A stretch of 64,000 bases of DNA, from the NCBI GenBank assembly GCA_014218215.1, contig CP043652.1, positions 3,844,001 to 3,908,000 on the forward strand, written 5' to 3'. Below the pieces are notes generated by a model that was given only the letters and a program-made list of their open reading frames with translations, was not told the DNA's origin and did not search any database. Positions 45,060 to 64,000 of the stretch are shown here, one piece after another (the stretch's first letter is position 1; each line of letters begins with the position of its first letter). The position numbers and the translations under genes were made by a program. This stretch comes from Geodermatophilaceae bacterium NBWT11 (GTDB lineage Bacteria; Actinomycetota; Actinomycetes; Mycobacteriales; Geodermatophilaceae).

Positions 45060-46544
45060 GTGCCTGACTCCACCGGTTTCCTCAAGTTCGAGCGGGCCAC
45101 CCCGCCGCGGCGTCCGGTCGACGTCCGGATCATGGACTGGAAGGAGGTCTACCTCGAGCGCGAGAAGGGCGGCGAGGAGGCCTTCGGCACCGCGGCGCTG
45201 CGCACCCAGGCGGCCCGCTGCATGGACTGCGGCATCCCGTTCTGCCACCACGGCTGCCCGCTGGGCAACCTGATCCCGGAGTGGAACGACCTCGTCCGCC
45301 GGGACGACTGGCGCGAGGCCACCGAGCGGCTGCACGCCACGAACAACTTCCCGGAGTTCACCGGGCGGCTGTGCCCGGCGCCCTGCGAGGGCTCCTGCGT
45401 GCTCAACCTGACCGAGTCCCCGGTGACCATCAAGCAGGTCGAGGTCGAGATCATCGACCGCGCCTTCGCCGAGGGCTGGGTCGAGCCGCAGCCGCCGGCC
45501 GAGCTGTCGGGCAAGAAGGTCGCCGTGGTCGGCTCCGGGCCGGCCGGGCTGGCCACCGCCCAGCAGCTGACCCGGGCCGGGCACGAGGTGACCGTCTTCG
45601 AGCGGGCCGACGCCATCGGCGGGCTCATGCGCTACGGCATCCCCGAGTTCAAGATGGAGAAGCGCCACCTGGACCGCCGGCTGGACCAGATGCGCGCCGA
45701 GGGCACCCGGTTCGTCACCGGCGTGGAGGTCGGGGCCGCGGGCTCCGACGTCACCGTCGAGCAGCTGCGGTCGGACTTCGACGCCGTGGTGCTCTCCGGT
45801 GGGGCGACCGTCGGCCGTGACCTGCCCGCCCCGGGCCGGGAGCTCGAGGGCATCCACCTGGCGATGGAGTTCCTGCCCGGCGGCAACCGGCAGGCCCTGG
45901 GCCAGGTCGAGCGCGCCCCGATCGACGCCCACGGCAAGCACGTGGTGATCATCGGCGGCGGTGACACCGGTGCCGACTGCCTGGGCACCTCGCACCGGCA
46001 GGGTGCGGCCTCGGTCGCGCAGCTGGAGATCATGCCCGAGCCGCCGTCGTCCCGGGGTGCGAAGAACCCCTGGCCGACCTACCCGATGGTGCTGCGGGTG
46101 TCCTCGGCGCACGAGGAGGGTGGCGACCGGATCTACTCGGTCAACACCGAGCGCTTCGTCGGCGACGAGGACGGTCACGTCCGCGCCATCGCCGTGCACG
46201 ACGTGGAGATGGTCGACGGGAAGTTCACCAAGGTCGAGGGCACCGAGCGCGAGCTCCCCGCCGACCTGGTCTTCCTGGCCATGGGCTTCACCGGTGCGCA
46301 GAAGGAGGGCCTGGTCGAGAGCCTCGGCGTCGAGGTCGACGGGCGCGGCAACGTCGTCCGGGACGCCGACTTCATGTCCTCGGTGCCCGGCGTCTTCGTG
46401 GCCGGGGACATCGGCCGCGGCCAGTCGCTCATCGTCTGGGCCATCGCCGAGGGCCGGGCTGCCGCCGGTGCCGTCGACACCTGGCTGACCGGGGCCTCCA
46501 TGCTGCCCCGGCCGATCACCCCCACGGCGGTCGCACTCCGATAA
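45060..46544 (+). CDS. gltD: Glutamate synthase (NADPH) small subunit
   Basis: Flavoprotein of 494 residues that transfers electrons from NADPH through FAD and two 4Fe-4S clusters to GltB. The cluster-binding N terminus shows RCMDCGIPFCHHGCPLGN and CPAPCEGSCVLN; the FAD site is VAVVGSGPAGLATAQQL and the NADPH site IIGGGDTGADCLG. The GTG start at 45060 has GGAGG 6 nt upstream. It ends in TAA, a rare stop in this window. A hairpin terminator lies downstream before pyk. Confidence 0.96.
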   Translation: MPDSTGFLKFERATPPRRPVDVRIMDWKEVYLEREKGGEEAFGTAALRTQAARCMDCGIPFCHHGCPLGNLIPEWNDLVRRDDWREATERLHATNNFPEFTGRLCPAPCEGSCVLNLTESPVTIKQVEVEIIDRAFAEGWVEPQPPAELSGKKVAVVGSGPAGLATAQQLTRAGHEVTVFERADAIGGLMRYGIPEFKMEKRHLDRRLDQMRAEGTRFVTGVEVGAAGSDVTVEQLRSDFDAVVLSGGATVGRDLPAPGRELEGIHLAMEFLPGGNRQALGQVERAPIDAHGKHVVIIGGGDTGADCLGTSHRQGAASVAQLEIMPEPPSSRGAKNPWPTYPMVLRVSSAHEEGGDRIYSVNTERFVGDEDGHVRAIAVHDVEMVDGKFTKVEGTERELPADLVFLAMGFTGAQKEGLVESLGVEVDGRGNVVRDADFMSSVPGVFVAGDIGRGQSLIVWAIAEGRAAAGAVDTWLTGASMLPRPITPTAVALR

Positions 46545-46653: not shown

Positions 46654-46659
46654 TAGGTT
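46654..46659 (+). promoter_or_regulatory. -10 box for leaderless pyk
   Basis: TAGGTT lies 7 nt (GAGCACC) before the ATG at 46667. Confidence 0.6.
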
Positions 46660-46666
46660 GAGCACC

Positions 46667-48082
46667 ATGTCCCGTCGCGCCAAGATCGTCTGCACCCTGG
46701 GCCCCGCCGTGGGCACCGCCGAGCAGATCACCGCCCTCGTCGAGTCCGGCATGGACGTCGCCCGGCTGAACTTCAGCCACGGCGAGCACGCCGACCACGA
46801 GCGCAACTACCACCTCGTCCGCACCGCGTCGGACTCCGTCGGCCGCGCGGTCGCCGTGCTGGCCGACCTCCAGGGCCCCAAGATCCGGCTCGGCCGCTTC
46901 GTCGACGGTCCGGTCCTCTGGGCCACCGGCTCCCGCGTGTGCATCACCGTCGAGGACGTCGAGGGCACCGCCGAGCGGGTCGGCACCACGTACAAGAACC
47001 TGGCCAACGACGTCCGCGTCGGTGACCGGCTGCTCGTCGACGACGGCAACCTCTCCCTCACCGTGGTCGAGGTCGACGGGCCCGACGTGTGGTGCCTGGT
47101 CCTCGAGGGCGGCGTCGTCTCCAACAACAAGGGCCTGTCGCTGCCCGGGGTCGCGGTCAGCGTCCCGGCGATGAGCGAGAAGGACGAGGAGGACCTCCGG
47201 TTCGCCCTGGGCCTCGGGGTCGACTTCATCGCGCTGTCCTTCGTCCGCAAGGCCGAGGACGTCGAGCTGGTGCGCGAGATCATGCGCCAGATGGACGTCG
47301 ACCTCCCGGTCATCGCCAAGCTGGAGAAGCCCGAGGCGGTGGAGAACCTCGAGGCCATCGTCGAGGCCTTCGACGGGATCATGGTCGCCCGCGGCGACCT
47401 GGGCGTGGAGCTGCCGCTGGAGCAGGTCCCGCTGGTGCAGAAGCGCGCCGTGCAGGCCGCCCGCGAGCGGAACAAGCCGGTCATCGTGGCCACCCAGATG
47501 CTCGAGTCGATGATCAACTCCTCCCGGCCCACCCGGGCCGAGGCCTCCGACGTCGCCAACGCCGTGCTCGACGGTGCCGACGCCGTGATGCTGTCGGGGG
47601 AGACCTCGGTCGGGAAGTTCCCCATCGCCGCGGTGCGCACCATGGAGCGGATCATCGACGCGGTCGAGTCCGACGCGGTGCGGGTGCCGGCCCTGCTGCG
47701 CCAGTCCCGCTCGCGCTCCGGTGCCATCGTCCGGGCCGCCCGCGAGGTGGGCGAGGCCCTCGAGGTCGACGCGCTGGCCGCGTTCACGATGACCGGGGAC
47801 ACCGTCCGCCGGCTCGCCGCGCTGCACACCACCCTGCCGATCCTGGCCTTCACCACCGACCCGCGGGTGCGCAGCCGGATGGCGCTGTCCTGGGGTGTGG
47901 AGACCTTCCTGGTGCCCGAGGTCGGGCACACCGACGACATGGTCGGGCAGGTCGACTTCTCGCTGCTGTCGATCGGCCGGCTCAAGGAGGGTGACCGGGT
48001 GGTCGTCGTCGCCGGCTCGCCGCCGAACATCTCCGGCTCCACGAACCTCATCCGGGTGCACGAGATCGGCCAGCATGCCTGA
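46667..48082 (+). CDS. pyk: Pyruvate kinase
   Basis: Final glycolytic enzyme, phosphoenolpyruvate plus ADP to pyruvate plus ATP; 471 residues, normal length. AKIVCTLGPAVGT at the N terminus, SGMDVARLNFSHG, the active-site signature AKLEKPEAVENL, MVARGDLGVELP and ATQMLESMINSSRPTRAE are present. The ATG at 46667 was chosen over a TTG 9 nt earlier because of the TAGGTT box 7 nt upstream. tesB follows after 30 bp, the same order as pykA-tesB1 in mycobacteria. Confidence 0.97.
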   Translation: MSRRAKIVCTLGPAVGTAEQITALVESGMDVARLNFSHGEHADHERNYHLVRTASDSVGRAVAVLADLQGPKIRLGRFVDGPVLWATGSRVCITVEDVEGTAERVGTTYKNLANDVRVGDRLLVDDGNLSLTVVEVDGPDVWCLVLEGGVVSNNKGLSLPGVAVSVPAMSEKDEEDLRFALGLGVDFIALSFVRKAEDVELVREIMRQMDVDLPVIAKLEKPEAVENLEAIVEAFDGIMVARGDLGVELPLEQVPLVQKRAVQAARERNKPVIVATQMLESMINSSRPTRAEASDVANAVLDGADAVMLSGETSVGKFPIAAVRTMERIIDAVESDAVRVPALLRQSRSRSGAIVRAAREVGEALEVDALAAFTMTGDTVRRLAALHTTLPILAFTTDPRVRSRMALSWGVETFLVPEVGHTDDMVGQVDFSLLSIGRLKEGDRVVVVAGSPPNISGSTNLIRVHEIGQHA

Positions 48083-50551: not shown

Positions 50552-50564
50552 GTGGCCGGTCACG

Positions 50565-50638
50565 TGCCCCCGGTCCGATTCGAACGGACACTGTGCGGGT
50601 TTTGAATCCGCTCCCTCTGCCAGTTGGGGTACGGGGGC
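50565..50638 (-). tRNA. tRNA with anticodon CAA (tRNA-Leu by codon), short variable arm
   Basis: A 74-nt cloverleaf: acceptor stem GCCCCCG/CGGGGGC, T arm GTCCG-TTCGAAT-CGGAC, anticodon arm GCGGA-TTCAAAA-CCCGC with an A.C mismatch next to the loop, variable loop ACAGT of only 5 nt, discriminator A and no encoded CCA. Anticodon CAA reads UUG (Leu), but leucine tRNAs normally have a long variable arm. The position beside an ANTAR regulator gene recalls leuX of M. tuberculosis. The 3' end is 1-14 nt from the decarboxylase start on the same strand. Confidence 0.85.
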
Positions 50639-50689: not shown

Positions 50690-51292
50690 GTGAGCAACGA
50701 GCCGACCCGGGTCCTCATCGCCGAGGACGAGGCACTGATCCGCCTCGACCTCAAGGAGATGTTGGAGGAGGAGGGGTACGTCGTCGTCGGCGAGGTCGGT
50801 GACGGCCAGGCCGCGGTCGACCAGGCGCGCGAGCTGCGGCCCGACCTCGTCGTCCTCGACGTGCAGATGCCGGTGCTGGACGGGTTGTCGGCCGCCGAGC
50901 AGATCGCGGCCTCGCGGATCGCCCCGGTGATCGTGCTGACGGCCTTCTCCCAGCGCGAGCTGGTCGAGCGGGCCCGAGACGCCGGCGCGATGGCGTACCT
51001 GGTCAAGCCGTTCTCCAAGGCCGACCTGGTGCCGGCCATCGAGGTGGCCCGGGCGCGGTTCGTCGAGATGACCGCGCTGGACGCCGAGGTCGGCGACCTC
51101 AAGGAGCGCCTGGAGGCCCGCAAGGTGGTCGAGCAGGCCAAGGGCAAGCTGATGACCGACCGCGGGATCAGCGAGGCCGAGGCCTTCCGGTGGATACAGC
51201 GCACGGCGATGAACGAGCGCACCTCGATGAAGGCACTGGCCCAGCTGGTTCTCACCGACGGTGTCGGCCCGGCGGAGACCCCCACCGCCTGA
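50690..51292 (+). CDS. pdtaR: Response regulator with RNA-binding ANTAR domain (PdtaR/Rv1626-like)
   Basis: A 200-residue two-domain regulator. The receiver domain (6-120) has the phospho-acceptor D57 in VVLDVQMP, the Thr in VIVLTAFSQ and the Lys in YLVKPFS. The ANTAR domain (about 130-190) includes VVEQAKGKLMTDRGISEAEAF and binds RNA hairpins to prevent termination in characterised relatives. In M. tuberculosis the orthologue PdtaR acts with the kinase PdtaS; the kinase gene is not in this window. The GTG start has a TAGGGT box 6 nt upstream. Confidence 0.93.
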   Translation: MSNEPTRVLIAEDEALIRLDLKEMLEEEGYVVVGEVGDGQAAVDQARELRPDLVVLDVQMPVLDGLSAAEQIAASRIAPVIVLTAFSQRELVERARDAGAMAYLVKPFSKADLVPAIEVARARFVEMTALDAEVGDLKERLEARKVVEQAKGKLMTDRGISEAEAFRWIQRTAMNERTSMKALAQLVLTDGVGPAETPTA

Positions 51293-51540: not shown

Positions 51541-52881
51541 ATGCGCACTGGCACCTTCGCCCGCGCTGTCGCCGTGTCCGGGGCCGTCCTGCTCGCTGCA
51601 ACCGCCTGTGGCGGCGGCAGCGACAGCGACGACGCCGCGGCCACCAGCGGTGGCAGCGGGGACAGCGGTTCACGGCAGGTCAACGTCTACGGCACCGACG
51701 GCAACATGGGCAACGCCCTCGGCAACGACTTCTCCGAGCCGGGCGCCCTGGCTGGCATGCGGGGCACCACGCCGCTGACCGAGCTGTCGGGGGACTTCAC
51801 CGACCGTCTGCTCGAGATCAACCCCGACCTGCAGGACTACAACTACGCGGGTGAGTCCTACGACGCGGTGATCATCACCGCGCTCGCCGCGCAGGCCGCC
51901 GGCACCAACCAGGCGACGACCTTCGGGCCGTACGTCAACGGCATCACCTTCGGTGGGGACGCCTGCTCGGACTTCCAGGCCTGCCTGGACATCATCACCG
52001 CCGGCGGGAACGTCGACTACGACGGCATCACCGGTCCGCTGAGCTTCGCCGATGCCGGCGAGCCGGCCGAGGCCAGCTTCGGCCTGCTGCAGTTCGGTGA
52101 CGACAACCAGATCGACGACAGCCTGACCGAGTTCGCCCTCGCGGGCGACGAGGCCAACGCCGCCTCCGACGAGGGCCCGGCCTACGCCGCGGCCGGCGCC
52201 ACGGGCGACCCGCTGATCATCGGCACGCTGCTGCCGCTGACCGGCAACCTGGCCTTCCTCGGGCCGCCGGAGGTCGCCGGCGTCCAGCTGGCGATCAACG
52301 ACATCAACGCCGCCGGTGGCGTCCTGGGCCAGCCGGTCCAGCTCGTCGAGGGTGACTCCGGTGACGCCTCGACCGACACCGCCACCCAGACCGTGGACCG
52401 CCTCCTGCAGTCCGGCGTCAACGCGATCATCGGCGCTGCCTCCTCGGGCGTGAGCCTCACGGTCATCGACACCATCACCGGTGCCGGCGTCCTGGAGTTC
52501 TCCCCGGCGAACACCTCCGACCAGTTCACGACCTACGACGACTCGGGCCTGTACTTCCGTACCGCGCCCGCGGACACGCTGCAGGCCCGTGCGCTGGCCG
52601 ACCTGATCGGTGCCGACGGCAACAACACGGTCGGGATCCTCGCGATCAACGACCCGTACGGCACCGGCCTGGCCGAGAACGCCCGCAACAACCTGATCAG
52701 CGACGGTCTGTCCGAGGACGACGTCGTCTCGATCACCTACGACCCGCAGGCTGCCAACTTCGACTCCGAGGTGCAGCAGATGGTCGACCTCAACCCCGAC
52801 GCCATCGTGGTGATCGGCTTCGAGGAGTCCTCGCGGATCATCCAGGGTCTCAACGCCCAGGGCATCGGCCCGCAGCGCTGA
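51541..52881 (+). CDS. Lipoprotein LivK-type substrate-binding protein with permuted domain order
   Basis: A 446-residue lipoprotein: signal peptide with lipidated Cys23 (AATACGGG), Ser/Gly/Asp-rich spacer (24-45), then two halves of a type I binding protein in reversed order. Residues 46-203 (from VNVYGTDGNMG through SYDAVIITALAA to GPLSFADAGEPAEASFG) match the usual C-terminal third. A linker (204-222) follows. Residues 223-446, from DPLIIGTLLPLTGNLAFLGP to the end NAQGIGPQR, match the usual N-terminal part. GGGAG lies 7 nt before the ATG. The gene stands alone, about 9 kb from livFGM. Ligand: probably an amino acid; unproven. Confidence 0.85.
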   Translation: MRTGTFARAVAVSGAVLLAATACGGGSDSDDAAATSGGSGDSGSRQVNVYGTDGNMGNALGNDFSEPGALAGMRGTTPLTELSGDFTDRLLEINPDLQDYNYAGESYDAVIITALAAQAAGTNQATTFGPYVNGITFGGDACSDFQACLDIITAGGNVDYDGITGPLSFADAGEPAEASFGLLQFGDDNQIDDSLTEFALAGDEANAASDEGPAYAAAGATGDPLIIGTLLPLTGNLAFLGPPEVAGVQLAINDINAAGGVLGQPVQLVEGDSGDASTDTATQTVDRLLQSGVNAIIGAASSGVSLTVIDTITGAGVLEFSPANTSDQFTTYDDSGLYFRTAPADTLQARALADLIGADGNNTVGILAINDPYGTGLAENARNNLISDGLSEDDVVSITYDPQAANFDSEVQQMVDLNPDAIVVIGFEESSRIIQGLNAQGIGPQR

Positions 52882-52939: not shown

Positions 52940-52952
52940 TGCGTGCCGGGGG

Positions 52953-53282
52953 TCAGAGACCGGCCACCAGCTCGGTGTCCACGCCGATCCGGCCGGTCTT
53001 GCTCGCCCCGCCGGGGTTGCCCAGGGGCGCGTCCCGCCCGGGCAGCAGCTCCAGGAAGAACCGCCGGTTGTCCTCCACGTGCGGCTCGTTCTCCTCGGTG
53101 ACCCGACGGTCCTGGGCGATGGCCTCGACCGGGCAGGCCGGCTCGCACGCCCCGCAGTCGATGCACTCCTTGGGGTTGATGTAGAGCTTGGTGTCGCCCT
53201 CGTAGATGCAGTCCACGGGGCACTCGTCCACGCAGGACATGTCGGTGGTGCCGATGCACTCGTTGCCGATCACGTAGGGCAC
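52953..53282 (-). CDS. fdxA: 7Fe ferredoxin
   Basis: A 109-residue ferredoxin with one 3Fe-4S and one 4Fe-4S cluster. Cysteines C9, C17 and C50 should hold the 3Fe cluster and C21, C40, C43 and C46 the 4Fe cluster, with C25 free, the pattern of FdxA/Azotobacter FdI shifted by one. It is the last gene of the five-gene box operon, 22 bp after the reductase gene, so it is the likely electron carrier from that reductase to BoxB. Such ferredoxins are also general carriers, so a dedicated role is inference. Confidence 0.92.
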
Positions 53283-53304
53283 GGTTGATCTGTCTCCAGT
53301 CGGT

Positions 53305-54315
53305 TCAGGCGGTGGCGAGCGCGGGGGTGCCGGTGCCGGCGGGGTCGTCGCTGCTGTGTCCGGGGAACAGCGGCTGGTCGGGTAAGAGGTGGGTGGCGGC
53401 GTTGTTCACGGCGGTGGCGGCCTCCCCGAACCCGACCGAGATCAACCGCACCTTGCCCGGGTACTCGGTGATGTCCCCGGCCGCGTAGACCCCGGGGACG
53501 GTGGTGCGCATGGCGGTGTCCACGGTGATCTTGCGGTCGACCACGTCGATGCCCCACCGCTCGAGCGGGCCGATGTCGGCGGTGAAGCCGAGCGCGGCGA
53601 TGACGGCGTCGGCCCGGTGCTCGGTCACCGTGCCGTCCTTCGCGCGGACGTGCACGGCGCGCAGGACGTCGTCCCCGGTGAGCTCGTGCACCTGGGCGTC
53701 GGTGACGACGACGGTCGACCCGGCGTGCATGTCGGCCACGCTGGCCGCGTGCGCCCGGAAGGCGGCCCGCCGGTGCACGACGGTGACCGAGGCGGCCAGC
53801 GGTTCCAGGGCCAGGGCCCAGTCGACGGCGGAGTCCCCGCCGCCGACGACGACGACGTGCTGGTCGGCGTGGGCGGCGAGCTCGCGGACCACGTAGTGCA
53901 GGCCGCGCCCCTCCCAGACGTCCCCGCCGGGGAGCGGGCGGGGGGTGAAGGTGCCGATCCCACCCGTCACGACGATCGCACCGGTGTCGATCCGGGTGCC
54001 CCGGTCGGTGGTGACCACCAGCCGGCCGTCGGGACGGCGCTCCAGCTCCTCGGCCCGTTCGCCCAGCACGTAGGTCGGGTCGAAGCGCCCGGTCTGGGCG
54101 ACGAGCCCGGCCACCAGGTCCCGGCCGCGGACGGCGGGCATGCCGGCGATGTCGTAGATCTGCTTCTCCGGGTAGAGCGCGGTGACCTGCCCGCCGGGTT
54201 CGCTGAGGCTGTCCACGATCGCGGTGCGCAGCCCGCGGAACCCGGCGTAGTAGGCCGCGTAGAGCCCGGCAGGTCCGGCACCGACGACGAGCAGGTCGAC
54301 CTCGACGTCCCTCAC
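53305..54315 (-). CDS. TrxR-like ferredoxin-NADP+ reductase (YumC type)
   Basis: A 336-residue flavoprotein of the thioredoxin-reductase fold. FAD site [21 protein letters not shown] site [16 protein letters not shown] and [22 protein letters not shown] at the end. The CxxC redox pair of thioredoxin reductase is missing, so it is a ferredoxin/flavodoxin-NADP+ reductase-type enzyme. GTG start overlaps the stop of the ligase gene. Between a ligase and a ferredoxin in the box operon, it should pass NADPH electrons to FdxA, the role done by the BoxA fusion in proteobacteria. Confidence 0.87.
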
Positions 54316-55958
54316 GCGTCGGCCCCGGTCAGCCGGGCCACGGCCAGCTCGCGCACCCGGAAGCGCTGCAGCTTGCCGGTGGCGGTCATGGGGAGCTCGT
54401 CGAAGACCAGCACGTGCCGCGGGCGCTTGAACGCCGCCAGGCCCTCCCGGCAGAAGGCGACCAGGTCCGCCCCGGTCGTGTTCGAGGCGGGGTCGAGCAC
54501 CACGCAGGCGACCGGCTTGTCCAGCCCGTCGGCGTCGGGGATGGACACCACGACCACGGAGCTGACGTCGACGTGCTCGCGCAGCCGGGTCTCCACCTCG
54601 GTGGGGGAGACCCAGATGCCACCGGCCTTGATGATGTCGTCGGTGCGCCCCAGGGAGGCGAAGTACCCGTCGGGCCCGCGGACGTAGGTGTCCCCGGTGC
54701 GCACCCACGGGCCCTGGAAGACCCGGCGGCTGACCTCGGCGCGCTGCCAGTACCCGGTGGCGGCCGAGGACCCGCGCACGTAGAGGTTGCCCGGGGTGCC
54801 GTCGGGGACGGGCCGGCCGTCGTCGTCCTCGATCTTGGCGTCGTACCCGGCCACCAGCTCCCCGGTCGAGCCGGCCCGCGCCCGCCCGGGACGGTTGCTG
54901 ATGAAGATGTGCAGCATCTCGGTCGACCCGATGCCGTCGAGCATCTCCACGCCAAAGCGGTCGGTGAGCCGGGTGAACAGCGCGGCCGGGAACGCCTCGC
55001 CGGCCGAGACGCAGGCCCGCACGGAGGCGAACGCGTCGGGGGGCAGCTGGGCCGCCATCAGCGCGGCGAAGTAGGTGGGGCCGCCGAAGAACAGGGTGGG
55101 CCGCAGCTCGGTGAGCACGCGCAGCGTCCCCGCGGGGCTGGGCCGGTTGCGGTCCAGGACGGTGCTGGCCCCGGCGCCGAACGGGAAGGTGAGGGTGTTG
55201 CCCAGGCCGTAGGCGAAGAAGAACTTGGCCACCGAGAAGGTGACGTCGTCCGGACGCATCGCCAGCACGTCGCAGGCGTAGGTCTCGTAGGTGTCGCGCA
55301 GCGAGCCGTGCCGGTGCATCGCGCCCTTGGGGGTGCCGGTGGTGCCCGAGGTGTAGAGCCAGAACGCGGGGGAGTCGGCCACGGTCGGGTACGGGTGGAC
55401 CTCCCGGCCCTGCCCGGTGGCCACGAAGTCCGTCCACCGGTGCACCCGGGCGCCCCGGACCTCGGGCAGGTCGCCGTCGGTGAGGACGACGACGTCGGCC
55501 AGGCCGGGCAGCCCGCCGACGGCCGGGGCCAGCGCGAGGAACTCCGAGCTCGTCGCGAACAGCCGGGCCCGGCTGTCCCGGGCCAGCACGGCGACGTCCT
55601 TGGGCGTGAGCATGGTCGACACCGGTACCGGGACCGCACCGATGCGCAGGCCCGCCAGGAACGCGGTGAGGAGCTCGGGGGTGTCGCCCATGCACAGCAG
55701 CAGGCGTTCCTCCGGCCGGACGCCGGAGGCCAGGAAGGCCGCGGCCAGCGCGGACACGGCCGCGTCGAGCTCGCCGTAGGTCAGCGTGCGGACGCTGCCG
55801 TCCAGGTCGATGGCGGTGATCGCGAGCCGGCCGGCGTCGGCCCGGGCGTGCCGGGTCACCAGCCACTCGGCGGCGTTGAACAGCTCCGGGCCCGCCGCCC
55901 CTGCGGCGGAGGGGACGGGCCCGGTCACGGCGTCGGCGCTGACGTCGAGGGTGGTCAT
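54312..55958 (-). CDS. Benzoate-CoA ligase-type acyl-CoA synthetase
   Basis: A 548-residue AMP-forming ligase that activates benzoate with ATP and CoA. The P-loop-like A3 motif LYTSGTTGTPKGAMHRHG, the A5-region GIGSTEMLHIFISN, and KAGGIWVSPTEVE with the A10 Lys region MTATGKLQRFRVREL are present. GIGSTEMLHIFISN closely fits benzoate- and related aryl-CoA ligases. It is third in the operon, 3 bp after boxB, which makes benzoate (or a close aryl acid) the expected substrate. Overlaps the reductase gene by 4 nt. Confidence 0.88.
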   Translation of the reverse strand: MTTLDVSADAVTGPVPSAAGAAGPELFNAAEWLVTRHARADAGRLAITAIDLDGSVRTLTYGELDAAVSALAAAFLASGVRPEERLLLCMGDTPELLTAFLAGLRIGAVPVPVSTMLTPKDVAVLARDSRARLFATSSEFLALAPAVGGLPGLADVVVLTDGDLPEVRGARVHRWTDFVATGQGREVHPYPTVADSPAFWLYTSGTTGTPKGAMHRHGSLRDTYETYACDVLAMRPDDVTFSVAKFFFAYGLGNTLTFPFGAGASTVLDRNRPSPAGTLRVLTELRPTLFFGGPTYFAALMAAQLPPDAFASVRACVSAGEAFPAALFTRLTDRFGVEMLDGIGSTEMLHIFISNRPGRARAGSTGELVAGYDAKIEDDDGRPVPDGTPGNLYVRGSSAATGYWQRAEVSRRVFQGPWVRTGDTYVRGPDGYFASLGRTDDIIKAGGIWVSPTEVETRLREHVDVSSVVVVSIPDADGLDKPVACVVLDPASNTTGADLVAFCREGLAAFKRPRHVLVFDELPMTATGKLQRFRVRELAVARLTGADA

Positions 55959-55961
55959 CTC

Positions 55962-57443
55962 CTAGAAGCGGACGTAGTCGTACTCGACGGGCATGTCGTT
56001 GATGCCCACCGACGGCGGCGCGATCCAGGAGGCGAACTCGCCCTCCTCGTAGTGGGGCGTCATGAGCGCCGCGACCTGCTCGCGGTCGTCGGGGGTGGGC
56101 AGCCAGTCACCGACCGAGCGCTCCCAGGTGGCGTCGTCCACGATCTCGCCCTGCGGGCTGACGTGGTGGCCGGAGAAGGCCCCCACCCGGCGGTTGAAGC
56201 CGTCGTGGGGCAGGTAGAGGCGCTCCTCCAGGCCGGCGTCCTCCAGTGCCTGGTTCCAGCGGCGCACGCCGTTGACGCAGTCGGCGGTGTACTCGTTGCG
56301 CAGGTCCAGGTTCAGTGCGGTCAGCAGCGGGACGGTGCGGGTGGTCAGCGCGCCGTCCTCGATGCCCGGGACGTCCATGGTCAGGTCGTGCAGGAGGTGG
56401 TCGTCCTTGCGGCGGGTCTCCATCCACCGGCCCTTGAGCCCGGCGGTGTAGTACTTCGCCACGTTGGACGACGTCTCGGAGCCGAAGAGGTCCATCGAGA
56501 CGGAGAACTGGAAGTTCAGGTACTTCTGGATCACGGTCAGCGGGATGGCCCCGTGCTGCCAGAGGTCCTCGGTGCCGTGCTCCGCCATCAACGCTGCCGT
56601 GCGCTCCACGGTCCGCTGCACCCCGGTGGTGCCCACGAACATGTGGTGGGCCTCCTCCTTGAGCATGAACTCGCACGTGCGGGCCAGCGGGTCGAAGGCG
56701 GACTCCTTCATCGTGCCGAGCTGGTACTTGCCGTCCCGGTCGGTGAAGTAGGTGAACATGAAGAACTGCAGCCAGTCGGTGGTCTCCTCGTTGAAGGCGC
56801 CCAGGATGCGGGGGGAGTCGAAGTCCCCGGAGTTGCGCTTGAGCAGCTCCTCGGCCTCCTCGCGGCCGTCCTTCCCGAAGTGGGCGTGCAGCAGGTAGAC
56901 CATCGCCCAGAGGTGCCGGCCCTCCTCCACGTTGACCTGGAACAGGTTGCGCATGTCGTACAGCGAGGGCGCGGTCATGCCCAGGTGGCGCTGCTGCTCG
57001 ACCGACGCGGGCTCGGTGTCGCCCTGGACGACGATCAGCCGGCGCAGGTCCGAGCGGTACTCACCGGGCACCTCCTGCCAGGCCTTCTCGCCCTTGTGCT
57101 GGCCGAAGGAGATGGTCCGGTCCGGGTCCTGCTCGGCCAGGAAGATGCCCCAGCGGTACTGCTCCATCGGCACCCGGTCGAAGTGCGCCCAGCCGTCCCG
57201 GCCGACCGCGATCGCGGTGCGCAGGTAGACGTCCTGGGTGGGGATCGACGGGCCGAGGCTGCCCCACCAGTCCAGGAACTTGGGCTGCCAGCCCTCCAGG
57301 GCGCGCTGCAGCTTGCGGTTCCCGGCCAGGTCCACGTTGTTGGGGATGCGCTCGGAGTAGTCGATGGTCGACGTCGGACCGGTGGGAGCCGGGGCCTGGC
57401 CGGTCAGCGTGCCGGTGCTGGGGGTCGATTCGGTCGTGGTCAT
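55962..57443 (-). CDS. boxB: Benzoyl-CoA 2,3-epoxidase subunit B
   Basis: Diiron oxygenase of 493 residues that epoxidises benzoyl-CoA with O2. The two ExxH pairs for the diiron centre are visible in NVEEGRHLWAMVYLL and MLKEEAHHMFVG. WQPKFLDWWGSLGPS and FTDRDGKYQLG are typical BoxB segments. The N-terminal 30 residues are Thr/Pro-rich and extra. ATG at 57443; 2 bp after boxC. Electrons are likely to come from the ferredoxin/reductase pair downstream. Confidence 0.95.
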   Translation of the reverse strand: MTTTESTPSTGTLTGQAPAPTGPTSTIDYSERIPNNVDLAGNRKLQRALEGWQPKFLDWWGSLGPSIPTQDVYLRTAIAVGRDGWAHFDRVPMEQYRWGIFLAEQDPDRTISFGQHKGEKAWQEVPGEYRSDLRRLIVVQGDTEPASVEQQRHLGMTAPSLYDMRNLFQVNVEEGRHLWAMVYLLHAHFGKDGREEAEELLKRNSGDFDSPRILGAFNEETTDWLQFFMFTYFTDRDGKYQLGTMKESAFDPLARTCEFMLKEEAHHMFVGTTGVQRTVERTAALMAEHGTEDLWQHGAIPLTVIQKYLNFQFSVSMDLFGSETSSNVAKYYTAGLKGRWMETRRKDDHLLHDLTMDVPGIEDGALTTRTVPLLTALNLDLRNEYTADCVNGVRRWNQALEDAGLEERLYLPHDGFNRRVGAFSGHHVSPQGEIVDDATWERSVGDWLPTPDDREQVAALMTPHYEEGEFASWIAPPSVGINDMPVEYDYVRF

Positions 57444-57445
57444 GG

Positions 57446-59155
57446 TCAGACCCGCTTCCTGTCGTAGTCGGCCCGCTGGCCGGAGCCGTAGCGGCGCAGT
57501 GCTCCCTCGGGGCCAGCGGCGTTGGGCCGCTGGAAGATCCAGTTCTGCCAGGCGGTGAGCCGGCCGAAGACCTTGGTCTCGGCGGTCTCCTGGCCGGCGA
57601 AGCGCAGGTTGGCCTCCATGCCGGTCAGCGCGTCGGGGGAGAAGCTGGCCCGCTCCTCCACGACCAGGCGCACCTCGTCCTCCCAGTCGATGTCGTCCGG
57701 GGTCGTGGTCACCAGCCCGAGCTCCCGGGCGTCGGCGGCGAGCAGGTCGCGACCCACGGCACCCTCGGCCGCGGCCAGCTCGGCGGCGCTGCCCAGGAAG
57801 CGGACCTGCAGCCGGGTGAGGTCGTTGCCCATCGGCAGCGGCCCGGTGTTGGCCGGGGTGAGCCGGATCACCGCGGGTGCTGCGGGTTCCTCGTCGTCCT
57901 CGAACCGGCCCTCCAGCATGAACTGCCGGTCGGCGGACAGCGCGATCTCGGCGAGCAGGCCGACGAAGCAGGAGCCCGGCTCGATCAGCGCGAAGAGGCT
58001 CCGGCTGGTGGTGTCCAGCCGCTTCACGGTCCGCTTGTAGAAGCCCCAGGTCTCGTTGACCAGCCAGTCGTCGCGGTGCTCGAGCAGGAAGGCGTCCCAG
58101 GCAGCGGCGGTCTCGACGTCGCCCTCGGTGCGCAGCAGCCAGGTGCCGATGCCCAGCTCGTTGGTGCGCAGCCGCAGGATCGCGTCGTCCAGCTGGCGGG
58201 TGACGGCCAGCGGCCAGGCGGCGGCACCGGCGGCGTGCAGCTCCTCGACCGACCCCGGGAGGGTCGTGGGCCCCAGGACGGTGATCGTGGCTGTCCCGGC
58301 GGCCCGGTCCAGGACGACGCGGACGTGGGCGTAGGCCGTGGTGTCGCCGTCCACCTCGCGGACCAGCGGGGTGAGCTCGACCCCGGTGGCGCCGGCGCCC
58401 GGGCGGGAGGAGCCGGCGGCGGCCTCGGTGGCCCGGGTGCGGACGACGTCGTCGAAGTCGCGGGCCTTGGCGACGGCGTCGACCAGCCGCCACTGCACCG
58501 CGCGCTCCCCGCGCACGCCCTCCGAGGTGGTGGAGAAGACGTCGGCGAGGTCGCGGCGGACCCCGCGCTTGTCGACCAGCCGGGTGAGCCCGCCGGTGCC
58601 CGGCAGCACGCCGAGCAGCGGGACCTCGGGCAGCGAGACCGCCGAGGAGTTGTCGTCGACCAGCACGATCTGCTCGCAGGCCAGGGCGAGCTCGTACCCG
58701 CCGCCGGCCGCGGTGCCGTTGACCGCGGCGATGAAGGGCAGGCCCGAGTGCGCGGTGGCGTCCTCGATGCCGTTGCGGGTCTCGTTGGTGAACTTGCAGA
58801 AGTTCACCTTCCAGCTGTGTGCCGAGCCGGCCAGCATCCGGATGTTGGCCCCGGCGCAGAACATCCGGTCCTTGCCGCTGGCGACCACGACGGCCCGCAC
58901 CTCGGGGTGCTCGAACCGGATCCGCTGGACCGCGTCGTGCAGCTCGATGTCCACGCCCAGGTCGTAGCTGTTCATCTTCAGCTCGTAGCCGGGCACGATC
59001 CCGCCGTCCTCGGCCACGTCGAGGGTGAGGGTGGCGATCTCCCCGTCGGTGCTCAGCGTCCAGTGCCGGTACTGCGCGGGGGAGGTGTCGAAGGAGACCT
59101 CGGCCGGGCCTGCTGGTGCCTCGTCGGTCTGTGGGCGGTCCTCGAGGGTGGTCAC
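57446..59155 (-). CDS. boxC: 2,3-epoxybenzoyl-CoA dihydrolase (ring-opening BoxC)
   Basis: Crotonase-type enzyme of 569 residues that hydrolytically opens the ring of 2,3-epoxybenzoyl-CoA, giving 3,4-dehydroadipyl-CoA semialdehyde and formate. VVASGKDRMFCAGANIRML, AVNGTAAGGGYELALACE (oxyanion hole) and PEVPLLGVLPGTGGLTRLVDKR are crotonase/BoxC blocks, and NETWGFYKRTVKRLDTTSR is typical of BoxC. First gene of the operon; the promoter-operator region lies just upstream at 59218-59261. boxD is not in this window. Confidence 0.94.
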   Translation of the reverse strand: MTTLEDRPQTDEAPAGPAEVSFDTSPAQYRHWTLSTDGEIATLTLDVAEDGGIVPGYELKMNSYDLGVDIELHDAVQRIRFEHPEVRAVVVASGKDRMFCAGANIRMLAGSAHSWKVNFCKFTNETRNGIEDATAHSGLPFIAAVNGTAAGGGYELALACEQIVLVDDNSSAVSLPEVPLLGVLPGTGGLTRLVDKRGVRRDLADVFSTTSEGVRGERAVQWRLVDAVAKARDFDDVVRTRATEAAAGSSRPGAGATGVELTPLVREVDGDTTAYAHVRVVLDRAAGTATITVLGPTTLPGSVEELHAAGAAAWPLAVTRQLDDAILRLRTNELGIGTWLLRTEGDVETAAAWDAFLLEHRDDWLVNETWGFYKRTVKRLDTTSRSLFALIEPGSCFVGLLAEIALSADRQFMLEGRFEDDEEPAAPAVIRLTPANTGPLPMGNDLTRLQVRFLGSAAELAAAEGAVGRDLLAADARELGLVTTTPDDIDWEDEVRLVVEERASFSPDALTGMEANLRFAGQETAETKVFGRLTAWQNWIFQRPNAAGPEGALRRYGSGQRADYDRKRV

Positions 59156-59217
59156 GCTGCCTCCTGGCCCGCCGGACGGCGGGGGGTCGGCCCGGTGTCC
59201 CGGGGGTGTCGCGGCTC

Positions 59218-59261
59218 ACTATGACGTGCTACACCTTGCTGCGCAAGGTGCCCATGACGTG
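59218..59261 (-). promoter_or_regulatory. box operon promoter with operator-like palindrome and direct repeats
   Basis: On the minus strand, TTGCGC (59246-59241) and CATAGT (59223-59218) are 17 bp apart, a plausible -35/-10 pair. The -35 element lies within CACCTTG-N5-CAAGGTG (59232-59250). Two copies of ATGACGTG (59221-59228 and 59254-59261) flank it with 33-bp period, about three helical turns. A repressor bound here would block the promoter. Confidence 0.55.
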
Positions 59262-59288
59262 TAGACCGCAGTCGCCGAGGAGGCCGCC

Positions 59289-59918
59289 GTGCCCGAGACG
59301 TTGCAGTGGGTCGCCGATCCCGACCCGCGCTGGGACGACGACCGGACACGGGTGTTCGCATCCGTCCCACCTGGTGTCTTCCCCGACCAGGAGCGCACGG
59401 CGGGGGAGCAGCTGACCGGAGACTGGTGGTCGGTGCGCTCGGCCGGGGGCGAGGTGCTCGGCTACGGGTGGCTCGACGACGTCTGGGGCGACGCGGAGGT
59501 CCTGCTGGCCGTCGACGGCAGGGCCCGGGGCACCGGCGCCGGTTCGTTCTGCCTGGCCCGGCTCGAGGCCGAGGCGTCCGCGCGGGGGCTCAACTACGTG
59601 GTCAACGTGGTGCGGGACGCCCACCCCGACCGGGATGCGGTGACCGGCTGGCTGCTGGCCCGCGGGTTCAGCGCGGCCGAGGACGGGCGGCTGCGCAAGC
59701 GGGTGGGCGGCCGGCGGGTCGGCCAGGACACCGGCGGGTCACCGGCGACCGGACCGGCACCCCGCCCCGACGACGGCGCGCGGGCCCGGTACGAGGCCGA
59801 GCGGGACCGGGTCGCCGGGCACCGCCACGAGGGGTCCGACCCGGTCGGCTCCGCGCCTCGCGGGCCCGGTGCCGAGGAGAGCGGCGGGTACGTCGACCCC
59901 GAGCAGCACCGGTACTAG
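59289..59918 (+). CDS. GNAT-like acetyltransferase with disordered tail
   Basis: A 209-residue protein. Residues 45-135 fit a GNAT domain: VDGRARGTGAGSFCLARLEAEA is the acetyl-CoA loop and GWLLARGFSAAEDG the C-terminal block. Residues 140-209 are Gly/Pro/charged and probably disordered. The GTG start is 28 bp after the box operator region, so it may share divergent control with the box operon. Acceptor unknown. Confidence 0.7.
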   Translation: MPETLQWVADPDPRWDDDRTRVFASVPPGVFPDQERTAGEQLTGDWWSVRSAGGEVLGYGWLDDVWGDAEVLLAVDGRARGTGAGSFCLARLEAEASARGLNYVVNVVRDAHPDRDAVTGWLLARGFSAAEDGRLRKRVGGRRVGQDTGGSPATGPAPRPDDGARARYEAERDRVAGHRHEGSDPVGSAPRGPGAEESGGYVDPEQHRY

Positions 59919-59972
59919 TCCGGGCGGGTGTCGGTCTCCCCACGTCCGGTGCCCGCGGCTGGCACCGGGTGC

Positions 59973-59978
59973 CACCAT
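59973..59978 (+). promoter_or_regulatory. -10-like box for leaderless paaX-like gene
   Basis: CACCAT lies 6 nt (GGACCG) before the GTG at 59985. Confidence 0.4.
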
Positions 59979-59984
59979 GGACCG

Positions 59985-60845
59985 GTGACAGCTGCGCGGG
60001 AGACGCCGATCGAGGGGCCGACCCTGACCCGGCGGCAGGAGCTCGGCGCGGCCAGCGCCCGCAGCCTGCTCCTGACGGTGCTCGGTGAGTTCGTGCTGCC
60101 GCGCGGGGAGCAGGTGTGGACCTCCACCCTCCTGGAGCTGGCCGCCGACCTCGACGTGGCCGAGAAGGCCGCCCGGCAGGCGCTGATGCGCACCGCCGAC
60201 GACGGGTGGATCGCCGCCCAGCGGATCGGCCGGGAGACCCGCTGGGGGCTCACCGAGCAGGGCACCCGGCTGCTGACCGACGGCACCCGGCGGATCTACG
60301 ACGCCGCGTCGGAGGAGCAGCCGTGGGACGGCAGCTGGCTGGTGCTCACCGTGACCGTGCCGGAGAACGCCCGGGCGCTGCGGCAACGGCTGCGCACCCA
60401 GCTCGGCTGGGCCGGGCTCGGCTCGTCCAGCCCGGGCGTGTGGGTGACCCCCCGGGTCGACCGCGAGGCCGAGGCCGCCCGGGTGCTCGAGGAGCTGGGC
60501 CTGACCGCGGGCAGCTGGTCGTTCGTGGCCCGGTCCGGACAGATCGGCGACCAGCGGTCGCTGGTGCGCAGCGCGTGGGACCTGGACGCGATCGAGACCC
60601 GCTACGAGGAGTTCCTGGAGCTGGTGGGCTCCCGTCGTCCGCGCACCGACCGGCAGGCGCTGGTGGCCCAGGTGCGGCTGGTCCAGGAGTGGCGGCGCTT
60701 CCCGCTGCTGGACCCGGGCCTGCCGCGGGAGCTGCTACCGCCGCGGTGGAGCGGCAACCGGGCCGCCCAGGTCTTCCGCGAGCGGCACGCCACCTGGGCC
60801 CCGCGCGCCCGCAGCGCCTGGGAGTCGCTGGCCCGCACCGACTGA
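59985..60845 (+). CDS. PaaX-family transcriptional regulator
   Basis: A 286-residue regulator of the PaaX family, whose founding member represses phenylacetate degradation and responds to phenylacetyl-CoA. The N-terminal winged helix (about 25-100) includes ARSLLLTVLGEFVLP and AEKAARQALMRTADDGWI; the central PaaX domain includes WLVLTVTVPENARALR and RLRTQLGWAGLGSSSPGVWVTPR. An aryl-CoA ligand and a place 0.7 kb from the box operon make it the best local candidate for control of that operon, but this is inference. Confidence 0.88.
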   Translation: MTAARETPIEGPTLTRRQELGAASARSLLLTVLGEFVLPRGEQVWTSTLLELAADLDVAEKAARQALMRTADDGWIAAQRIGRETRWGLTEQGTRLLTDGTRRIYDAASEEQPWDGSWLVLTVTVPENARALRQRLRTQLGWAGLGSSSPGVWVTPRVDREAEAARVLEELGLTAGSWSFVARSGQIGDQRSLVRSAWDLDAIETRYEEFLELVGSRRPRTDRQALVAQVRLVQEWRRFPLLDPGLPRELLPPRWSGNRAAQVFRERHATWAPRARSAWESLARTD

Positions 60846-60864
60846 GCGGCCTCGACGGGGTGCC

Positions 60865-61290
60865 TCAGCCCAGCACGAGCCACCCGGCGAGCACGACGTT
60901 CGCACTCGCAGCGGCCACCCGCACCGAGTCCACCCGCAGCAGCCGGCGGTGCGCGTCGGCGTCCCACCCGACGTCGAGCCGGCGGTGCAGCGGGACGGCG
61001 CCGGCTGCGGTGACGCCCAGGACGACGGCCAGGCACACCGCGCTGCCCAGCACGGGCAGGGTCGGGACGTCGCCGCGCAGCAGGAGCACCAGCAGCCAGA
61101 CCGTGGTCGCGCCCTGGCCCACGAACAGCGGGCCGACCACCCGGGTCACCCGCTGCTGGTGGGCCCGCTCGTAGGCGGCGAAGCCCTCGCCCACCCCGGC
61201 GAACTGGGGGTAGACCAGCACCCGCACGGTCCACTGGAACCCGGCGTACCCGGCGACCAGCACGAGGTGGGCGACCGCGAGCAGGCTCAT
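60865..61290 (-). CDS. Four-helix membrane protein (DUF1772-like)
   Basis: A 141-residue protein with about four hydrophobic helices (4-22, 52-72, 78-98, 120-140). The residues YPQFAGVGEGFAAYERAHQQRVTR after helix 1 are reminiscent of DUF1772 membrane proteins. Overlaps the end of the gene before it (ATGA), so the two are co-translated. Function unknown. Confidence 0.68.
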   Translation of the reverse strand: MSLLAVAHLVLVAGYAGFQWTVRVLVYPQFAGVGEGFAAYERAHQQRVTRVVGPLFVGQGATTVWLLVLLLRGDVPTLPVLGSAVCLAVVLGVTAAGAVPLHRRLDVGWDADAHRRLLRVDSVRVAAASANVVLAGWLVLG

Positions 61291-61601: not shown

Positions 61602-61617
61602 CGGCCCATGACAGCAC

Positions 61618-61655
61618 GATGCCGGCCGCCCCGCGTGTGCGGGGCGACCGGCATC
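61618..61655 (-). terminator. Hairpin terminator after livF
   Basis: GATGCCGG and CCGGCATC arms with an inner CGCCCCGC/GCGGGGCG stem around GTGT, directly downstream of the liv operon. Confidence 0.8.
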
Positions 61656-61671
61656 GGGTGTGCTGCTGCGG

Positions 61672-62523
61672 TCACTGCGCCTTGGCGAGGGTGCCCAGGT
61701 ACAGCTCGACGACCTTGGGGTCGTTCATCAGCGACTTGCCCGTGTCGGTGTAGGCGTTGCGGCCCTGGTCGAGCACGTAGCCGCGGTCGCAGATCTGCAG
61801 GCACCGGCGGGCGTTCTGCTCGACCATGATGATCGAGACGCCGGTGGCGTTGATCCGCCGGCAGCGGATGAAGACCTCGTCCTGGTAGGCGGGGGACAAC
61901 CCGGCCGAGGGCTCGTCGAGCAGCAGCACCGACGGGTCCATCATCAGCGCCCGGCCCATGGCGACCATCTGCCGCTCGCCACCGGACAGCGACCCGGCCT
62001 TGCCGTTGCGCCGCTCACCGAGCAGCGGGAACAGGTCGATGACGTAGTCGAAGCGGTCCTTGAACGTCTTGGGCCGCAGGTAGACGCCCATCTGCATGTT
62101 CTCGGCGATGGTGAGGGAGGGGAAGACGTTGTTGTTCTGCGGGACATAGCCCACGCCCATCTGCACCAGCCGGTGGGCCGGTGCCGAGGTGATCGTCTCC
62201 CCGCGCAGGGTGACCCCGCCCGACCGGACCGGGATCAGCCCGAACAGTGCCTTGAGCAGGGTGGACTTGCCGGCCCCGTTGGGACCGATGATCCCGACCA
62301 GCTCGCCGTCCTTCAGGTAGAAGTCGCAGCCCCGGAGGATGTTGACCCCGGGGACGTAGCCGGCGACCAGGTCGTCGGCGCGCACCAGCGCACCCTCGGC
62401 GAGCTTGAGGTGCTCCTCGCGGGTGGCCGCCTTCTCCGCGGGGGAGAGCTCGGCCGAGGCCACGGTGTCGGCGCGGGTGACGTCCTCACCGGTCTCGTCG
62501 ACCTCGAACAGCGGTTCGCTCAT
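61672..62523 (-). CDS. livF: Branched-chain amino-acid ABC transporter ATPase
   Basis: A 283-residue ATPase of the LivF group powering a hydrophobic-amino-acid importer. Walker A GPNGAGKST, signature LSGGERQ, Walker B LLLDEPSAGLSP and the switch His region IIMVEQNARR (a Gln/Asn-type end typical of LivF) are present. An acidic N-terminal extension of about 45 residues is unusual. Overlaps livG by 4 nt (ATGA). The operon is followed by a hairpin terminator. Confidence 0.93.
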   Translation of the reverse strand: MSEPLFEVDETGEDVTRADTVASAELSPAEKAATREEHLKLAEGALVRADDLVAGYVPGVNILRGCDFYLKDGELVGIIGPNGAGKSTLLKALFGLIPVRSGGVTLRGETITSAPAHRLVQMGVGYVPQNNNVFPSLTIAENMQMGVYLRPKTFKDRFDYVIDLFPLLGERRNGKAGSLSGGERQMVAMGRALMMDPSVLLLDEPSAGLSPAYQDEVFIRCRRINATGVSIIMVEQNARRCLQICDRGYVLDQGRNAYTDTGKSLMNDPKVVELYLGTLAKAQ

Positions 62524-63551
62524 CGTGTGGTGTCCGTCCCGTCGGTGGTCGACCGGTGCGAGCCGGTCCGCTCGCTGGAGAGCGTCTCCGCGGGGCGGTC
62601 GCCGGTGGGGACGCCCTCCTCGCGGGCGATGGCAGCCTCCGCCTCGGCGAGGACGCGGTCCTCCTCCTCGTTGGTCAGCGGTGCGTCGTGGTGGGCGCCC
62701 AGGTAGGCGTCGACCACGTCCTTGTTCTGCGAGATCGACTCCGGGGGCCCCTCGGCGATGATCTTGCCGGCGGCCATCACCACGACCCAGTCGCTGATGT
62801 CGCGGACGACGTCCATGTCGTGCTCGACGAAGACGACGGTCATGCCGTCCTCGCGGAGGTCCTTGACGTGGCCCAGCAGGGACTGGGTCAGCGCCGGGTT
62901 CACCCCGGCCATCGGCTCGTCGAGCATGACGACCTTGGGGTCGCTCATGAGCGCGCGGGCCATCTCCAGCAGCTTGCGCTGCCCGCCGGAGAGGATGCCG
63001 GCGAAGTCGTCCTTCTTGGCGTCGAGCTTGAAGCGCTTGAGCAGCTCCATCGCCCGCTCGGTGTTCGCGGTCTCCTGGCGACGCCAGGTGCCGGGCACCA
63101 GGGCCTTGAGGAAGGACTCCCCGTTCTGGTCCTGGGCGCCCAGCAGCATGTTCTGCATGACGGTCAGGCGCGAGAGCGCCTTGGTCAGCTGGAACGTGCG
63201 GACGACGCCGAGACGGGCCACCTTGTGCGGGGACAGCTTGCCCAGCGACTGGCCGTCGAAGGTCCAGGTGCCGGTGTCGGGCTGGTCGAACCCGGTGAGC
63301 AGGTTGAACAGCGTCGTCTTGCCGGCGCCGTTGGGCCCGATCAGCCCGGTGATGCCACCGCGCTGGATCTCCAGGTGGTCCACCGACACCGCGGTGAGCC
63401 CACCGAAGGTGCGGGTGACCCCGTCGACGACGAGCGCCGGGTCGGGCTTGGCGACGCCGACCTGCCAGGGCAGGTCCGCCAGCGCCGCCTGCGCGAGGCG
63501 GGCCGGGGCAGGACGGTCGGCCGGCTGGACGGGAGTGGGGTCAGCGGGCAT
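62520..63551 (-). CDS. livG: Branched-chain amino-acid ABC transporter ATPase
   Basis: A 343-residue ATPase of the LivG group. Walker A GPNGAGKTT, signature LSGGQRKLLE, Walker B VVMLDEPMAGVNP and the switch His in VVFVEHDMDVVRDI are intact. The N-terminal 38 residues (Pro/Ala-rich) and the acidic C-terminal 50 residues extend the usual 255-residue core. ATG at 63551 overlaps the end of livM by 11 nt. Forms the importer's ATPase pair with LivF. Confidence 0.93.
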   Translation of the reverse strand: MPADPTPVQPADRPAPARLAQAALADLPWQVGVAKPDPALVVDGVTRTFGGLTAVSVDHLEIQRGGITGLIGPNGAGKTTLFNLLTGFDQPDTGTWTFDGQSLGKLSPHKVARLGVVRTFQLTKALSRLTVMQNMLLGAQDQNGESFLKALVPGTWRRQETANTERAMELLKRFKLDAKKDDFAGILSGGQRKLLEMARALMSDPKVVMLDEPMAGVNPALTQSLLGHVKDLREDGMTVVFVEHDMDVVRDISDWVVVMAAGKIIAEGPPESISQNKDVVDAYLGAHHDAPLTNEEEDRVLAEAEAAIAREEGVPTGDRPAETLSSERTGSHRSTTDGTDTTR

Positions 63552-64000
63552 CGAGCATCACCTCTCGTCGGTCACCGAAGATGCCCTGGGGTCGGAACAC
63601 CAACAGCAGCATGAGCCCGATGCCGACCAGGACGAAGCGGATCTGCGCGACGTCGGTGGAGGACAGCAGGGTGTCGGGGATGATCCCGTTGCTGATCAGC
63701 GAGCGCAGGCCGGTGTCGGCGAACTGCAGGATGAACAGCAGGATGATCGACCCCACGACGGGGCCCAGCACGCGGGCCGCGCCACCCAGGATGAGGGCGG
63801 CGTAGGCCAGGAACGTGTTGGCGTTCTGGTACTGGTCGGGGATCGCGGAGCCGGTGCCGACGGCGTAGACCATGCCGCCGAGTGCACCGAAGACCGCACC
63901 GAGCACGAGCGCCTGCATCTTGTAGCTGTAGACGTTCTTGCCCAGGGCGCGGACGGCGTCCTCGTCCTCGCGGATGGCCTTCAGCACGCGGCCCCAGGGG
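63541..64000 (-). CDS. livM: Branched-chain amino-acid ABC transporter permease, C-terminal part (runs off window)
   Basis: The last 153 codons of a LivM-type permease. PWGRVLKAIREDEDAVRALGKN is the cytoplasmic EAA-like coupling block of LivM proteins; about four helices follow, ending in VLVGIGLMLLLVFRPQGIFGDRR, the usual LivM end. The 5' part lies beyond 64000, where livH and a binding-protein gene would be expected. Overlaps livG by 11 nt. Confidence 0.92.
   Translation of the reverse strand, partial: PWGRVLKAIREDEDAVRALGKNVYSYKMQALVLGAVFGALGGMVYAVGTGSAIPDQYQNANTFLAYAALILGGAARVLGPVVGSIILLFILQFADTGLRSLISNGIIPDTLLSSTDVAQIRFVLVGIGLMLLLVFRPQGIFGDRREVMLDAR

Follow-up and report, generated by a model that had tools for sequence, protein, structure and literature searches.

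A predicted LivK-type binding lipoprotein with circularly permuted parts and its apparently repeated origin in Actinomycetota

The lipoprotein gene at 51541-52881 (+) of the window, by which we mean the whole 64,000-nucleotide stretch of DNA analysed here, raises the question of whether a LivK-type binding protein can be encoded with the part that normally ends the chain placed before the part that normally begins it, and, if so, by what route and how often such an order has arisen. The gene is a single intact frame of 446 residues in the window. Its translation runs from a signal peptide and lipobox through the LivK C-terminal part and a 19-residue linker to the N-terminal part, in agreement with the layout that a sequence-only reading of this DNA had described, and the part boundaries and coordinates given in that reading hold (Table 1). 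The lipobox was read from what we take to be its motif, with the codon of Cys23 at 51607-51609. The spacing between the Cys and the C-terminal part has a median of 21 residues over 111 rows of the type termed A below, with duplicates across collections counted.

Table 1. Features of the permuted gene and its surroundings, in window positions
Feature	Position	Strand	Basis or remark
tRNA-Gly (gcc), preceding the gene for pyruvate kinase	45823-45912	-	
Pyruvate kinase, on the outer flank of the conserved locus	46658..48082	+	PF00224, PF02887
tRNA-Leu (caa), a short way upstream of the gene for the ANTAR regulator	50564-50638	-	
ANTAR-domain response regulator, neighbour on the upstream side	50690..51292	+	PF00072, PF03861; conserved neighbour
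Signal peptide with lipobox, permuted protein	51541..51609	+	ends at Cys23; translation
Low-complexity tether, residues 24-45	51610..51675	+	translation
Canonical LivK C-terminal part, residues 46-203	51676..52149	+	ANF_receptor 267-350; tblastn/blastp against canonical relatives
19-residue linker (residues 204-222) between the old C-terminus and the old N-terminus	52150..52206	+	canonical L188 ends at linker start
Canonical LivK N-terminal part, residues 223-446, GIGPQR and stop codon	52207..52881	+	Peripla_BP_6 profile 4-217
livF-like ATPase, presumed partner importer	61672..62523	-	ORF; ABC_tran; 75% to L033 LivF
livG-like ATPase	62520..63551	-	ORF; ABC_tran and BCA_ABC_TP_C (branched-chain tail)
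livM-like permease, continues past the window edge	63544..64000	-	tblastn; PF02653 (BPD_transp_2)

The order of the parts was assessed by domain searches with the chain as encoded and with its two parts exchanged. In the natural order, Peripla_BP_6 (PF13458) matches over profile positions 4-217 only, on residues 227-444 (123.6 bits against a cut-off of 31.7), and the canonical order is absent along the chain, the remainder of the domain preceding this match. The first part alone gives an ANF_receptor match over profile positions 267-350 at 22.9 bits, slightly below the family cut-off of 25.4 bits. When the parts are swapped, the Peripla_BP_6 match extends over 4-304 of 343 positions (135.2 bits) and that to ANF_receptor over 6-350 of 353. 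The exchange, which had been proposed as a check on the claim that the C-terminal part precedes the N-terminal part, completes one canonical domain, and the natural and swapped matches agree with that claim. The best match among PDB sequences, the branched-chain amino-acid binding protein 4gnr_A, is matched as far as chain residue 221 in the natural order and as far as residue 301 once the parts are swapped. Natural-order domain searches detect only a portion of permuted LivK proteins.

The ends of the two parts were compared with canonical relatives. The window protein stops at GIGPQR, where the sequence-only reading had placed the continuation of the normal chain, and the canonical-order protein of locus L033 indeed reads through this position (GIGPQQVPLYLVDGN). 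A second canonical-order protein, L188, stops where the linker starts (...IDDSLTEFRLAEL, then its stop codon), and the window protein runs on at that point (...IDDSLTEFALAGDE). Across 40 type A proteins, invariant residues lie in both parts, among them D53, G54, N55 and E105 in the first and S302, T325, R340 and Y373 in the second, as expected if both parts still form one cleft. At the level of sequence, these comparisons confirm the window protein as a predicted type I (HAAT/LivK) binding protein with circularly permuted parts. The two parts had earlier been called lobes; they are complementary, as that description implied, but they do not equal the lobes. In type I binding proteins the chain crosses between the lobes, so each part should hold pieces of both.

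Could the order be an artefact? The window genome encodes a paralogue (G000:C1:1961803-1963122(-); 1501-2832 (-) of locus L002) that is 70% identical, has its parts in the same order and ends at the same GIGPQR and stop codon. Same-order homologues, a search for which had been suggested, were also found in related genomes, with full-length or nearly full-length permuted matches in 28 of the 36 genomes of the same family (G000-G035). Three other genomes of the 36 gave partial matches, and the permuted gene is missing from five (four without a match and one with a weak 26% match only). The same-order paralogue and the 28 family genomes exclude misassembly and chance. Between the window gene and four Klenkia orthologues, dN/dS is 0.36-0.39, a simple count that is probably biased by high GC, and the window gene is under purifying selection. 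That an assembly error or a decaying gene accounts for the order can hardly be entertained in the face of the paralogue, the 28 full-length family members and this constraint, which together rule out assembly error, chance, gene decay and a pair of tandem genes. The permuted order is lineage-wide and not private to the window genome.

The paralogue in the window genome has no liv genes nearby, and similar lone copies are present in K. taihuensis (L086) and K. terrae (L102).

The usual place of the permuted gene is between an ANTAR regulator gene and livFGMH, which is the slot of canonical livK in relatives. A canonical counterpart is found in genome G057, from another family of the same order, at 5247-6533 of L033, where query residues 222-446 match at 58%, followed by residues 43-196 at 41%. 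The genes in that locus are pyruvate kinase, the ANTAR regulator and livK, then convergent livF, livG, livM and livH. In the window genome, PF02653 matches at G000:C1:3907718-3908488 and 3908595-3909401 correspond to livM and then livH, the latter outside the window. Approximately 9 kb of other genes separate the permuted livK from livF in the window, versus roughly 1 kb in the named Klenkia loci. The segment at 52950-61670 holds a 4Fe-4S ferredoxin and an AMP-binding ligase, both by Pfam, and then further genes; judging from the reading frames, we take the rest of it to resemble an aerobic benzoyl-CoA (box) cluster. In a search for structured RNA near the permuted gene, the family cut-off was passed by a tRNA only.

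To describe how far the permuted order extends, we scanned named genomes, sampled genomes and one genus. The named-genome scan covered 516 relatives, and the best 80 of these, ranked by similarity to the permuted query, comprise 79 with a permuted gene and one unclassified piece at a contig edge (L104), a proportion that is no frequency because the ranking favours permuted genes. Of the best 80 of 516, 47 come from Geodermatophilaceae and 14 from Micromonosporaceae; the others are from Acidimicrobiia, from Salsipaludibacter, which belongs to Nitriliruptoria, and from unplaced MAGs. A search with the G057 protein (E ≤ 1e-20) gave matches in 121 of 296 class genomes and 55 of 296 phylum genomes sampled; the two-piece permuted pattern was observed in 10 of the 121 class matches and at least 6 of the 55 phylum matches. 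Canonical LivK relatives are widespread in both the class and the phylum. A total of 253 frames were classified, 141 as permuted and 112 as canonical, with the same gene often counted more than once.

The permuted proteins fall into two types, A and B, separated by a rule that looks for DGN among the final 30 residues. In type A, the chain ends at the GIGPQR position or close to it; this type occurs in Geodermatophilaceae, in Micromonosporaceae (for example, ..AGVQIRH before the stop codon), in family f39 (..GIGPNS), in genus g116 of family f49 (..GIGPNA) and in genus g73 of family f41 (..GIGQGS), the last three ends each directly followed by the stop codon. Type B proteins, held by Acidimicrobiia, Salsipaludibacter and several MAGs, are about 20 residues longer at the end (..GIGPQEIPLWLVDGNIGNALGEKFNE, then stop) and start correspondingly later (LEGMKGTTPLV). 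The median linker is 20 residues in type A and 21 in type B, counted without eleven loci that are mostly second fetches of one gene. Within genus g73, a match was found in 82 of 147 sampled genomes, and 9 of these 82 are permuted. The permuted g73 genes follow pyruvate kinase and an ANTAR gene; eight of the nine precede convergent livFGMH, and the ninth (L252) meets a contig edge. Two canonical g73 genes, L253 and L254, occupy the same slot as the permuted ones, and the other canonical g73 loci examined have different arrangements.

Two side observations concern individual loci. Standalone permuted copies in Micromonosporaceae are L100, L103, L106, L107, L109-L114, L117, L119, L120 and L123. 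In an Acidimicrobiales MAG, L108 (1-4000 and 8203-9555) carries a tandem pair of type B permuted genes, of which the first is cut by the contig edge, as well as a distant canonical gene (34%) on the opposite strand.

As to how REARRANGEMENT happened, the linker opens with the old C-terminal tail in all three lineages compared. The window protein does so at the junction described above for L188. In g73, permuted L173 reads YITGQI and then PDSTD.., and canonical L175 ends at YISGNI. In the third lineage, L118 reads DVTYQQGEI and then VPEG.., and the G057 protein ends at DVVYQPGELD. Beyond the linker, the old mature N-terminus picks up again, and this succession of old tail and old N-terminus is the join expected of two copies fused head to tail. 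In L259, L260, L261 and L262, loci that were chosen because two adjacent matches had appeared, livK genes of canonical order stand in tandem directly before convergent livFGMH; this is the kind of arrangement from which a fusion would start. Beside the 141 permuted rows (duplicates included), a search at E ≤ 0.05 for remnants of the lost halves returned none but the tandem copy in L108, which suggests that the truncations were old or clean. The sequence-only reading had put forward permutation by duplication, fusion and truncation, and this probable route is supported by the swapped domain, the conserved order, the shared slot, the tandem copies and the tail in the linker. No outcome that the reading had named as speaking against it was observed.

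By this route, an ancestral livK between the ANTAR regulator gene and livFGMH would have undergone tandem duplication, and the two copies would have fused head to tail. Copy 1 would have lost its start up to a surface loop, with the signal, lipobox and tether retained, and copy 2 would have been cut at the same surface loop, so that some 20 linker residues now connect the old C-terminus to the old N-terminus. The order of the duplication and deletion steps is the one that we infer.

The number of origins was addressed with trees for which the permuted proteins were first re-ordered to the canonical arrangement; L001 and L214, which duplicate the window gene, were removed from them. A quick tree was built from 199 rows dereplicated to 92, minus L108_1_B (91 rows). 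For a careful tree, 19 of the 92 rows were dropped, 7 of them for being long, distant or partial and 12 in a thinning of Geodermatophilaceae and Micromonosporaceae, and 10 were added, which gave 83; a second thinned 83-row set includes the g73 genes. The careful 83-row tree exhibits six changes among canonical, A and B, and its well supported branches force at least five switches between the canonical and the permuted order. The N-part and C-part trees exhibit six changes each, and in them well supported branches force four and two, respectively. A chimera of two unrelated paralogues was also considered and rejected on these two part trees, which both recover the main permuted groups, except that in the C-part tree (146 columns) f39 and f49 do not join and L091 changes place.

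AU tests were then applied to groups chosen once a tree had been inspected, and the p values that follow are optimistic for that reason. A clade of all permuted genes was rejected (p 5.3e-5; p 8.4e-12 with the second row set), as was a clade of all type A genes (p 6.1e-8). Within type A, the group A1 (Geodermatophilaceae, Micromonosporaceae and L087) was rejected as a clade with f39/f49 (p 1.5e-7) and with g73 (p 2.7e-5), and g73 was rejected with f39/f49 (p 0.0099); A1 with all type B gave p 0.039. These tests of re-ordered sequences reject a single origin of the permuted genes. Because the type A groups are pairwise incompatible, at least three origins are needed unless the canonical order was repeatedly restored, and since the cut point of type B is a separate one, four or five origins are the plainest reading. 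The permutation seems to have arisen more than once, and several times within Actinomycetota.

Restoration deserves attention here, given that change counts on a tree cannot separate gain from loss. One or two early permutations followed by several later returns to the canonical order would accommodate the canonical f8 genes, which the free tree places among genes of type A, as well as the compatibility with the data of type B as one clade (p 0.138) and of A1 with type B minus L091 (p 0.0995). Yet A1 without the canonical f8 genes is itself compatible (p 0.557), so the f8 genes need no restoration; a single early gain requires several restorations on the careful tree, more steps than separate gains; and the solved relatives, among the matches listed, align in the canonical order. 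In g73, moreover, the permuted group is nested in lineages that were canonical until recently. We regard such a history as improbable. Separate gains are the reading that we prefer, and we lean slightly towards the view that circular permutation has a hotspot in the livK gene of the livK-livFGMH locus, with at least four independent events in Actinomycetota: three at one loop (in Geodermatophilaceae and Micromonosporaceae, in f39/f49 and in g73) and at least one at another loop, some 20 residues further along the chain (in Acidimicrobiia and Salsipaludibacter). The tether would have moved to the other lobe each time, which suggests recurrent selection on the anchoring side in importers with tethered binding proteins.

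What the permuted protein does is suggested by its homology and its shared locus, which point to amino-acid binding and the feeding of LivHMGF. Very probably, the gene encodes a working LivK-type lipoprotein of an ABC importer for branched-chain or other amino acids, derived from a gene circularly permuted through duplication, fusion and truncation. The chain would fold as the usual two-lobed fly-trap and pass its ligand to LivHM. An unlikely alternative role for the permuted copies, that of receptors or scavenging binders and not importer subunits, would fit the lone paralogue in the window genome and the 14 named Micromonosporaceae copies, whose surroundings within 3 kb contain no livF-like gene; it sits poorly with the convergent livF found within 3 kb in 44 of the 47 named Geodermatophilaceae loci and in 13 of the 15 type B loci. 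An ANTAR gene lies upstream in 43 of the same 47 loci and, by the same rule, in none of the 15 type B loci. The importer role is retained as the leading reading for the window gene, and the copies lacking a livF-like neighbour imply that not every permuted protein need serve LivFGMH.

The fold, the ligand, the geometry of the tether and the use of LivFGMH are predictions from sequence and gene context. In the alignment to 4gnr_A, the cut falls close to residues 221-225, a position that we presume, from the topology as we know it, to lie in lobe 2; on that assumption the lipid tether would now enter lobe 2 and not lobe 1. The parts might instead pair between two chains as a swapped dimer, for which nothing direct speaks beyond the short linkers, with their median of 20 residues; this arrangement is very unlikely, since the crystal structure of the permuted protein MglB-2 is, according to the available text of its report, a single-chain fly-trap (PMC4990184).

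Among known systems, LivK/LivJ-type proteins (type I / cluster B, HAAT, PF13458) resemble the window protein in their homologous parts, their lipoprotein signal and their place beside livFGMH. The window protein differs from them in its reversed parts, in the linker that joins the old ends and in a tether that is expected on the other lobe. A natural permuted, tethered type I lipoprotein is described in the available text on TpMglB-2 (Tp0684) of Treponema pallidum, a glucose-binding protein termed 'Type Ic', in which the first three strands of the N-lobe have moved to the C-terminus and the strand order of the C-lobe is kept (PMC4990184). The permuted MglB-2 binds glucose with a conformational change, and the available Discussion raises, without testing it, the idea that the changed topology is perhaps an adaptation to membrane anchoring (PMC4990184). 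As far as that text allows a comparison, the window protein is likewise, by its sequence, a naturally circularly permuted tethered type I binding lipoprotein; it apparently belongs to another family, approximately 40% of its chain has moved, its cut aligns to what is presumably lobe 2 and its permutation would have had repeated origins. MglB-2 does not appear by name among the 60 listed of 101 PDB sequence matches (E ≤ 1). The Thermotoga ribose-binding protein, whose permuted halves serve as a model of the origin of the fold, shares with the window protein permutation, duplication and the fold itself; the available text concerns two separately studied permuted halves and describes no natural full-length permutant (PMC9815098). 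In the open-licence literature, MglB-2 was the sole natural permuted type I binding protein found, and neither a permuted LivK nor its spread in Actinomycetota or repeated origin was found there, which does not prove their absence. The permuted LivK is apparently a known kind of rearrangement that has occurred in another family and has evolved repeatedly.

In a single phylum, the same protein has apparently undergone permutation several times, and canonical and permuted genes share a slot even within one genus. The natural cut points may be usable for permuted amino-acid sensors. Replicated natural pairs of this kind would allow a test of the membrane-anchoring idea raised in the MglB-2 Discussion, and, in a surface protein of a soil actinobacterium, they would offer natural test cases for how a shift of the anchor point bears on nutrient uptake.
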